Below are positions 10,007-13,442 of a DNA stretch of 40,241 nt, one piece after another. The position numbers and the translations under genes are program-made. This DNA comes from Sulfurimonas sp. (lineage in GTDB: Bacteria > Campylobacterota > Campylobacteria > Campylobacterales > Sulfurimonadaceae), in contig JAMORO010000017.1 in the NCBI GenBank assembly GCA_027063505.1, positions 1 to 40,241 of the forward strand. Reading direction: 5' to 3'. Position 1 is the first letter of the stretch, and every line of letters starts with the position of its first letter. The notes beneath the pieces are model-generated. The model made no database searches. It was not told the origin of the DNA and saw nothing but the letters and a program-made list of their open reading frames with translations.

Positions 10007-11629
10007 TTAAGTGTATTTAAGTTGACAAGTTATCATTCTCTCAACAAGTACTCTAGCAACCTCAACTTTGCCATCAACAACGACTGTTATGTTAAGATCT
10101 TCTAGCTTTTTTTTCTCTTCTAAAGAGACAACTTTGACAATAAGATTTGCATTATATGAGTGTTTCAAAATTGCTTCACAGATTAATCTTTTTTTATCTA
10201 TATTATCGAGTGTTACAATAATTGATGATGCTTTTTCAATATTAAGTGCATTTAAAATAGAACTTTTTGAGGCATCTCCCAAATAAGCTTCTATATCTTC
10301 ATTTAGAGCCTCTTTTACATGCTTGTTTGAGTTGTCTACAACTATAAAAGGAGCATCTAACTCCTCTAAGTGCTTTGTGACGAACTTTCCAACTACACTA
10401 TAACCACATACTATAACATGGTCCTGTCTCGATGCGAGAGAGGTCATATCTGTTACAATATCTTTACTCTTTATAATCTTCTCTACAAAATCATTAATCC
10501 GTGTAATAAAAAATGGGGTTACTATCATAGAGAAAATAACTACCAACACTAAAAGACTCACTAAATCTTTATCAAGAATATTTCCAGCAGAGGCAACGGC
10601 GAAAATAACAAACGAGAACTCTCCAACTTGAGAGAGAGAAAGTGCACTTTTAAGCGATGTTGCACTATTTGATGATAAACGTAATAAAAGGAAGATAATT
10701 AATGTTTTAAAGATAAGTATAAGTGTAAAAAGACCTACTATAAGAGCGATATTTGATACAAACATATCTATATCTATCTTCATTCCAACTGTTACAAAAA
10801 ATGTTCCAAGTAAAATATCTTTAAAAGGTGCTATCTCTGACTCAACTTTATGATGATACTTGGTCTCAGCTATAATCATTCCTGCTACAAAAGCACCAAG
10901 AGAGTAAGTGAACCCCATGGATGAAGCAAAAAGTGAAGCACCAACAACAATAAAAAGAACAGAACCCATAAAGAGTTCATCGAGTTCAGATGAAGCCGAG
11001 AAGTGAAGTAGCCAGGTTACAAGTCTTTTCCCAACTACAAAGAGAAGTCCAACAACTATTATGGCAGAGACGATTGTATGCATTAAAATAGTTGCTACAC
11101 TCTCATCTCCCTCATTTGTTAAAAATCCAATAAGAATTAAAATTGGGATAACTGCAATATCCTGAAAGATAAGAATTCCAGTAGAATTTTGACCATATGG
11201 GGTATAAATCTCTTTAGAACTTTTAAGATAACTTAACACTACGGCTGTAGAGGAGAGAGAAAAGGCTAAAGAGATAATAATAGAGGAAATAGAATCAAGC
11301 ATAAAAATATAGTGAGCTGCAATATAAACGACTACAGTTGTAAAACCAACTTGCATTAAACCATTACCAAAGATCTCTTTTTTCATCGTTCCCATCTTTG
11401 CCAAAGATATCTCAAGTCCTATAGTAAACATCAAAAAGACTATACCAAACTCGCCTACCATCTCAAGTTCATGAGAGTGTCCTGCTTCACGAAGATCAAA
11501 GGCATATACTATAATTGTTCCAGTAATAATATAACCAATAATCTGCGAAATACCTATCTTTTTAAGAAAAATATTTACTACTATAGAGATTCCTAGTGCG
11601 ACAATAATATAAAGAAGTGTACTTTCCAT
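10007..11629 (-). CDS. CPA2 cation:proton antiporter with RCK/TrkA-N domain (KefB-like)
   Basis: 540 residues. The first 380 residues hold about twelve membrane helices with CPA2 features: GYIITGTIIV, FGIVFLMFTIGLEISL, LSSTAVVLSYL and a VGEFSFVIF segment near the end. A Rossmann RCK_N domain follows (HVIVCGYSVVGKFVTKHLEE with GxGxxG-like spacing, then VVDNSN and LGDASKSSIL). Family members exchange K+ or Na+ for H+, and the RCK domain gates them by nucleotide binding. There is no glutathione-pocket evidence to call it KefB or KefC proper. The ATG shares one base with the stop of the small secreted protein upstream. Confidence 0.85.
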   Translation of the reverse strand: MESTLLYIIVALGISIVVNIFLKKIGISQIIGYIITGTIIVYAFDLREAGHSHELEMVGEFGIVFLMFTIGLEISLAKMGTMKKEIFGNGLMQVGFTTVVVYIAAHYIFMLDSISSIIISLAFSLSSTAVVLSYLKSSKEIYTPYGQNSTGILIFQDIAVIPILILIGFLTNEGDESVATILMHTIVSAIIVVGLLFVVGKRLVTWLLHFSASSELDELFMGSVLFIVVGASLFASSMGFTYSLGAFVAGMIIAETKYHHKVESEIAPFKDILLGTFFVTVGMKIDIDMFVSNIALIVGLFTLILIFKTLIIFLLLRLSSNSATSLKSALSLSQVGEFSFVIFAVASAGNILDKDLVSLLVLVVIFSMIVTPFFITRINDFVEKIIKSKDIVTDMTSLASRQDHVIVCGYSVVGKFVTKHLEELDAPFIVVDNSNKHVKEALNEDIEAYLGDASKSSILNALNIEKASSIIVTLDNIDKKRLICEAILKHSYNANLIVKVVSLEEKKKLEDLNITVVVDGKVEVARVLVERMITCQLKYT

Positions 11630-12012
11630 TAGCGAGGGTGTGGCCCTTTTTTTGATTCTTTATAAAGCTTTATCAGTGTCTCTCGCTCTTCCTCTGAAAG
11701 AAGAGTTCTCTGTGCTGCATTTTGTAAACGCATTACACCCTCTGGAGTTTGAGAAACTCTTTGTGGTGTTCTATAAATTTTTCCATTTTTTACATCTATT
11801 TCGGCTTTGTAAAAGTATCTATCTGTTGGATTAAATAGGATTACACCAGAATCATTTTCTATCCAGTGAAAAGAGGCATCCCCTTTTAAGTAGGCTTGAA
11901 AAGTTGACCCATCAGGCTGTGTATATGTATGAAGACCACCTCTTGCAGGTGCTGCACTAAGAGTAGCACTAAATACCACCATAACTACTAAATAATATAA
12001 AAACTGTTTCAT
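11629..12012 (-). CDS. Small secreted protein resembling the N-terminal propeptide of M6 metalloproteases
   Basis: 127 residues with a clear signal peptide (cleavage expected near SAAPA, residues 19-22). The mature part, GLHTYTQPDGSTFQAYLKGDASFHW then FNPTDRYFYKAEID, looks like the domain that precedes the catalytic domain in M6-family proteases, where TQPDGT...LHGDEFFHW...GY is typical. Its C-terminal third is basic and helical (LLSEEERETLIKLYKESKK). The gene begins 11 bases after an M6-like protease that lacks such a domain, with AGGAG ahead of its ATG. It may act in trans as a chaperone or inhibitor of that protease. The resemblance is seen by eye; the role is inference. Confidence 0.6.
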   Translation of the reverse strand: MKQFLYYLVVMVVFSATLSAAPARGGLHTYTQPDGSTFQAYLKGDASFHWIENDSGVILFNPTDRYFYKAEIDVKNGKIYRTPQRVSQTPEGVMRLQNAAQRTLLSEEERETLIKLYKESKKGPHPR

Positions 12013-12023
12013 CTCTTTTTCTC

Positions 12024-13442
12024 CTATATCTGTATGCTAAAAGTCATTGTTCTAGCCTCTGTATCTTCACTCACAACTTTAACTATATAACCGGAGTTAC
12101 TTCCTGTATAAAGCTTAGTATGTGTTGTATCCATCGTTGAACCTACAGTAAAAACATCTTCAAAGTTTGCTCGTAAACCAGGCTGTGTAGCCATTGTAGT
12201 TTTATAGCTTTTTTGTACTATCGCTACTTTATAATGGTTTCCTAGTGTCTGATTCCCACCCTCTGAATTATTCTCTTTATTACTATCTACATGATACAAA
12301 ATACTAAAGAGTCTATCTGTTGTAAATGTAGTATCAGCACTCATAAAACCAGCATCGGAAATAGATCTTTGTGTATCTCGACACCCAATTAAGAAATACT
12401 CATTTGGTAGTGTTGTTGTAAGCTTTAGTAGTTCAGTATCACTACACTTTAAAGTAACAGATGAGGGATTATCAACAACTGTTGTAACACGACTAGGCAT
12501 CACTTCAAATTTTGAATATACTCCAAACTGTGTAGGAGAGTCTCCATCATAAGAGTCAGCATCCCCTTTTGCCCATGTACCACCACCCATAATATCAAAA
12601 TAGCCAATACCAGCACCTGTATATGAAGTATCGTAGAGATCAATTAGATTTAGCATTGAATGCCCCACTTCATGTGCAATTATCCCAATACTTGCTTCAT
12701 GCTTACTAGCCGTACCATTTCCATGAATAGAGCCAAATGCACCATAACTTCCCGATGTATTCGCATCTCCGGTAGCATACATTAATTTTACACCATTAAT
12801 TAGAGGTGCATTTACTGTAGCATTTTCATAATTCCAAGAGTGTGCCCATAATGCATCTTTAGTATCGCCATAAGACATCTCACCACCAGCTACAATAAAA
12901 ATTATCTGTAATTCTGAGTAATCGATAATGCCATTACTATCTTTATCAAAAAGAGAAAAGTCAACATTTGATGTAACAGTATTACTCGTTATAGCATCTG
13001 TTATATCTGTACTAACAAATGAAACAAAATCATAATCTCTTCCATCTGCTGTTATCCGGTCAGGCCTATTTTTTCCCATAGGGACACTTATCACACCATC
13101 ATTTGATGTACCTTGATTTTCATTTATTGGAGAGAGTTGTATTTTAGAGTGTGTACTGTCTGCATACCAACGATTTACAGAAGCTTGTGAAGCATCAAAG
13201 ATTTTATCATGCCACACATTTGCATCATCCTCAGAGTAATCATTCCAATTCATCAAAACAACAAGAGTTGGTACTGTTATTTGAGTATCTCCAGCAACCA
13301 CTTTATATACCTCTACCTGACCTGTTCCTCCTAAAGAGTCTCCTACATCTGTGCCTGTATCTTCAAGTCCACTACCACAAGAAGAGAGTAAAATAATTAG
13401 TGCAAACACCAAAAATGCTTTTTGTATTTTATATTGATTCAT
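12024..13442 (-). CDS. M6-family zinc metalloprotease, predicted lipoprotein
   Basis: 472 residues. A lipobox (LLSSC, Cys 22) follows a hydrophobic signal, so the protein is probably anchored to a membrane on the outer side of the cytoplasmic membrane. After a Gly/Asp-rich linker the catalytic domain starts near residue 55 (VPTLVVLMNWNDYS). The zinc site is HEVGHSMLNLIDLYD (His 257, Glu 258, His 261, Asp 268), the M6/immune-inhibitor-A type. An EF-hand-like loop, DKDSNGIIDYSE at about 167-178, could bind calcium. The usual M6 propeptide is absent from this chain but a similar domain is encoded by the next gene. It is the first gene of the leftward run that includes the antiporter and two signalling proteins. 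Confidence 0.8.
   Translation of the reverse strand: MNQYKIQKAFLVFALIILLSSCGSGLEDTGTDVGDSLGGTGQVEVYKVVAGDTQITVPTLVVLMNWNDYSEDDANVWHDKIFDASQASVNRWYADSTHSKIQLSPINENQGTSNDGVISVPMGKNRPDRITADGRDYDFVSFVSTDITDAITSNTVTSNVDFSLFDKDSNGIIDYSELQIIFIVAGGEMSYGDTKDALWAHSWNYENATVNAPLINGVKLMYATGDANTSGSYGAFGSIHGNGTASKHEASIGIIAHEVGHSMLNLIDLYDTSYTGAGIGYFDIMGGGTWAKGDADSYDGDSPTQFGVYSKFEVMPSRVTTVVDNPSSVTLKCSDTELLKLTTTLPNEYFLIGCRDTQRSISDAGFMSADTTFTTDRLFSILYHVDSNKENNSEGGNQTLGNHYKVAIVQKSYKTTMATQPGLRANFEDVFTVGSTMDTTHTKLYTGSNSGYIVKVVSEDTEARTMTFSIQI

Follow-up and report, generated by a model that had tools for sequence, protein, structure and literature searches.

The window, that is the whole 40,241-nucleotide stretch of Sulfurimonas sp. 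DNA analysed here (contig JAMORO010000017.1), contains on its minus strand a gene for a metalloprotease of the M6 family, followed by a gene for a small exported protein and a gene for an antiporter. The features of this locus, in the direction of transcription, are as follows.

12024–13442, minus strand: M6-family metalloprotease, a predicted lipoprotein of 472 amino acids (TIGR03296, E 7.9e-29)
13377–13388, minus strand: lipobox LSSC, residues 19–22; across the family the corresponding Cys hardly varies
12912–12947, minus strand: EF-hand-like DKDSNGIIDYSE loop inside the M6 domain (weak EF-hand matches, E 0.0015), found in relatives too
12630–12674, minus strand: zinc-binding motif HEVGHSMLNLIDLYD; in alignment A2, HExGH and D vary little or not at all
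12573–12605, minus strand: Met-turn GYFDIMGGGTW, including the Met that is invariant in alignment A2
12013–12023, minus strand: 11-bp intergenic stretch, at the junction TAGGAGAAAAAGAGATG; the M6 stop codon TAG is part of the Shine-Dalgarno sequence TAGGAG of the small gene
11629–12012, minus strand: small exported protein of 127 amino acids, by profile matches a stand-alone copy of an M6 N-terminal domain
11944–12012, minus strand: signal peptide with a signal-peptidase-I-like A-P-A site (Ala23 invariant in profile A1; APA also in fused proteins)
11755–11943, minus strand: core domain containing the motifs QPDGSTF and KGDASFHWIE; the model of a relative has six strands here
11632–11697, minus strand: C-terminal amphipathic helix (497–518 in the model of a relative) and basic tail ending GPHPR
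10007–11629, minus strand: cation:proton antiporter (Na_H_Exchanger and TrkA_N), whose start codon overlaps the stop codon of the small gene (TAATG)

The product of 12024–13442 (minus strand) matches TIGR03296 over residues 63–355 with 101.4 bits, below the curated cut-off of 110.8, and relatives carrying the same pair of genes score up to 154 bits. It has the hallmarks of the family, namely HExxH (HEVGHSMLNLID), a candidate Asp ligand downstream and the DIMGG Met-turn. As an assessment of the fold, the model of a relative (L068), which is 28% identical to the M6 protein of the window, was compared with InhA2 (4yu5), giving Z 26.7 over 346 residues at 2.8 Å. We conclude that the catalytic domain belongs with M6, though it scores slightly under the TIGR03296 cut-off. 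The DKDSNGIIDYSE loop is probably a Ca site, as judged from its sequence. The spacing from HExxH to Asp (12630–12674) is one residue longer than in the HExxHxxGxxD of Bacillota relatives, and this longer spacing is common in the M6 branch of the window protease.

In the window protease the lipidated Cys22 and the catalytic domain lie only about 33 residues apart, and the N-terminal domain is therefore absent. This bears out the preliminary description, which had seen here a lipoprotein M6 protease without its usual N-terminal domain and had proposed that the exported 127-residue protein of the next gene looks like just that domain. To examine this second proposal, named bacterial genomes were scanned with an M6 alignment, which gave 75 loci, and all ORFs of these loci were then searched with a profile, A1, built from 17 stand-alone Campylobacterota small proteins only. 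Besides small ORFs adjoining M6, profile A1 matched the segment just after the signal peptide in 17 long, fused M6 ORFs with E below 1e-3, the best matches being in Geobacter (3.8e-17), Alkalihalobacillus (7.2e-17), Cohnella (1.5e-15) and Bacteroidales (1e-10). In the reverse direction, a profile of the 17 fused domains found the small protein of the window with E 4.4e-18, the best of 1900 shuffles reaching 0.027, and hhalign gave a probability of 99.6%. Stand-alone and fused domains share A-P-A, QPDG[ST]xF, G-D-x-x-x-[HN]-W-x-E and later positions. AlphaFold placed six strands in the same order in a paired chain (L068, residues 421–477; pLDDT 92.8) and in a natural fusion (L096, residues 34–89; pLDDT 87.2); the models were compared by strand order only, and in L068 the M6 stop codon was read through purely as a modelling device. 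The C-terminal helix and tail segment of the small protein in turn matched the linker of a Geobacter fused M6 in a profile search. These sequence matches and models identify the small protein as homologous to the domain at the N-terminus of fused M6 proteases, and the resemblance asserted in the preliminary description thus stands.

The domain has so far escaped naming. Scans of the small protein with Pfam, NCBIfam and PADLOC gave no credible family, and no Pfam or NCBIfam model covers the fused N-terminal domain in any of the five proteins scanned. A PDB sequence search with the small-protein profile returned chance matches to TraI only (E 0.34) and no match to the propeptide of 4yu5 or 4yu6; fold searches, which barely probe this part of the models, gave weak Tudor/SH3-like matches and paired the small domain with no solved propeptide. 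A plasmid search with the small protein, a phage search with the M6 protein and scans of viral contigs found no match. InhA2, the only solved M6 protease found, was solved as a zymogen (4yu5, 4yu6) and shares the catalytic fold of the relative of the window protease; its alignment to the model starts at InhA2 residue 159 and covers the catalytic part only. As far as tested, the lack of likeness that would have refuted the earlier proposal was not seen, the domain being shared with fused M6 proteases; an equivalence with the propeptide of InhA2, which aligned only over its catalytic part, is no more than possible.

Because the M6 stop codon overlaps the small gene's Shine-Dalgarno sequence, the small gene is, on the evidence of the junction, translationally coupled to the upstream M6 gene; junctions in relatives are similar (TAAGGAAA-ATG). 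The association of the two genes was surveyed in 228 genomes of the bacterial family. The small gene was present in 62 and M6 in 64, and both were present in 62 (Fisher p 4e-54, a value that ignores genome relatedness), so that every genome with the small gene also has M6; the co-occurrence that the preliminary description had proposed to check was found, and a small gene widespread without the protease, which would have spoken against the pair, was not seen in the genomes tested. The small gene lay directly downstream of M6 on the same strand in 62 of the 66 matches, and upstream in none. The other four comprise an assembly break (G460), one false positive and two members of a divergent, unlinked subfamily (G375 and G370), whose genomes both retain sister unlinked M6 genes. 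The two genomes with M6 only are accounted for by a contig end and by a divergent M6. A second M6 and small gene pair lies in the genome of the window itself (contig C50, L040:2595–6565), with an M6 chain of 1195 amino acids that has roughly 750 extra residues resembling, by eye, cadherin-type repeats. Seen in dozens of genomes and twice in that of the window, the pairing is not due to chance.

Several M6 genes have no adjoining small gene. Stand-alone proteins with a long extension at the C-terminus form an unlinked subfamily (L194:3156–3686 and L195:3228–3722), in whose genomes there are sister M6 genes that no small gene adjoins, and at L205 (3760–8089) a single small gene follows two M6 genes in a tandem M6-M6-small arrangement.

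The split arrangement extends beyond one lineage, being found in SAR324, in a Bathymodiolus thiotrophic symbiont and, as a case apart, in a Geobacter MAG. The stand-alone form was present in 13 of 41 SAR324 genomes, next to M6 in 12 of the 13, and the split form predominates in SAR324 too, whereas Desulfuromonadales, Bacillota and Bacteroidota mostly have fused forms. The Geobacter MAG (G514, L133:2181–3437) has three tandem stand-alone copies upstream of an M6 without the domain, the M6 frame stopping early near the contig end; in the order to which it belongs the domain is almost always fused, and its gene arrangement looks like a separate split event. In the M6 tree, two changes suffice to separate paired and fused forms. 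The distances among M6 and among small proteins correlate (Mantel r 0.80, 36 pairs), a correlation that shared ancestry alone can produce. Two further loci show other states: in Pleionea sediminis (L141:6516–7016) the domain fused to M6 is a weak match, and a predicted lipoprotein encoded separately downstream carries the domain as well; one SAR324 pair (G692:C2:232019–233658) lies in several frames with an in-frame stop, as if the pair were decaying or the assembly were in error.

The TIGR03296-type fused M6 proteins of Geobacter (L115) and Alkalihalobacillus (L096) have the same two domains as the window pair, with the same signature (APA, QPDG-F, GD-HW-E) and strand order. In these proteins, however, a single polypeptide carries the domain first and no lipobox was present in the examples read, whereas the window has two genes in the inverted order and a catalytic chain that is a lipoprotein. 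In the window, as in each of the 66 family matches, the domain is encoded by a gene of its own. The order of the genes is the reverse of the order of the domains in the fused protein, and the arrangement is therefore not a simple split by a stop codon: all 62 adjacent small genes lie downstream of M6, and the fused domain is N-terminal. A read-through fusion is not supported either, as every small ORF begins at a start codon of its own and encodes a signal peptide; the M6 and small frames are in phase at some loci only.

These results, taken together, give good support to the notion that a zymogen-like protease has been split into two polypeptides. As to the function of the small protein, we infer, and consider reasonably probable, that it binds M6 and acts as a prodomain in trans. 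The catalytic chain would be exported as a lipoprotein and held by its lipid anchor, and the former N-terminal domain would be exported from the next, translationally coupled gene as a separate, soluble periplasmic protein; the small protein is taken as soluble and the enzyme as anchored because the former keeps the APA cleavage site and the latter has a lipobox. The small protein would then bind M6 non-covalently in the periplasm and help it to fold, hold it inactive until it arrives at the surface or the small protein is degraded, or both. That the genes are separate, neighbouring and co-translated suggests that the small protein controls the enzyme, or aids its folding, from outside. A bolder version is possible, and we put it forward tentatively: in two phyla M6 would no longer have a covalent prodomain, having lost it, and a prodomain exported separately and free to diffuse would reversibly control a lipid-anchored surface protease, one small protein possibly serving several M6 paralogues per cell.

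In the structure prediction proposed in the preliminary description the strand order agrees with that of the fused domain, and AlphaFold gave no confident docking. The two AlphaFold chains reached pTM 0.77 and 0.74 with no docking predicted; by our estimate these are about the values that the catalytic part alone would give, and the chains were rejected as docking evidence because the pTM is too low. As a mechanism of latency, a conserved cysteine switch was ruled out, as no Cys is conserved, and a strict aspartate switch is unlikely, as Asp45 is replaced by Asn in 11 of 47. Our literature search found no published evidence that this M6 N-terminal domain is a propeptide.

Precedents for a propeptide-like protein acting in trans exist in other protease classes. 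The C10 cysteine protease SpeB keeps its own propeptide. Its gene stands, as does that of the window protease, beside a co-transcribed small gene for a propeptide-like protein, Spi, a propeptide-analogue inhibitor (cited in PMC2873492). SUB1-ProM of Plasmodium is likewise a stand-alone, subtilisin propeptide-like protein, encoded at a locus adjacent to protease genes and shown to inhibit (PMC6993865). The small gene of the window is likewise adjacent to, and coupled with, a protease gene. The window pair differs from SpeB-Spi in its unrelated protease class and in that its catalytic chain has lost its own domain; it differs from SUB1-ProM in that SUB1 is a serine protease of a eukaryote and has its own propeptide (PMC6993865).

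These precedents bear on the rather unlikely alternative that the small protein is purely an inhibitor that guards the periplasm from escaped protease, as Spi would for SpeB, with M6 folding unaided. Its downstream operon position and soluble export resemble those of the known adjacent inhibitors (PMC2873492, PMC6993865), and an M6 without an adjacent copy has a copy elsewhere in the genome, save in incomplete or divergent cases. Against this, the homology to a cis domain that is fused in most relatives suggests an ancestral role in folding or latency, which is compatible with inhibition. In a further reading, which we regard as improbable, the small protein would be a permanent subunit without a regulatory role, the fused N-terminal domain serving to bind substrate or to target the enzyme and the pair forming a stable complex. 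The fused N-terminal domain is not known to be removed, and the weak Tudor/SH3-like fold matches are to a common binding-domain type; however, the fused domain comes right after the signal peptide and is followed by a linker modelled as disordered (residues 109–132, pLDDT 32–33), and such a position is the usual place of a removable prodomain. Finally, co-occurrence does not demonstrate contact, and the genes could be neighbours by descent only, the small protein acting elsewhere or being a substrate, which is very improbable given the co-occurrence in 62 of 62 genomes, the homology to an M6-fused domain and the unlinked copies still found with M6.

If a prodomain in trans is correct, nature provides in this pair a split zymogen for a family of metalloproteases, and the functions of folding and latency would be separable and titratable in it. 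The searches also define an unnamed domain family, which in several phyla is joined to the M6 catalytic domain and which lies outside the Pfam and NCBIfam models, and name a likely partner for many proteins now annotated as hypothetical. The literature searched, which covered few subscription journals, contained no prior description of the split M6 arrangement.

The tail of the small protein (window 11632–11646) has a His near its end in 12 of 17 same-genus small proteins, as counted by eye; a contact of this His-containing tail with the metal or the active site is possible on sequence grounds. The KefB-like antiporter gene (10007–11629) overlaps the stop codon of the small gene by one base and is, by its position, probably an operon neighbour outside the pair. 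Several genomes of the same genus (L041, L037, L042, L044 and L045) likewise have the genes in the order M6, small gene, antiporter.
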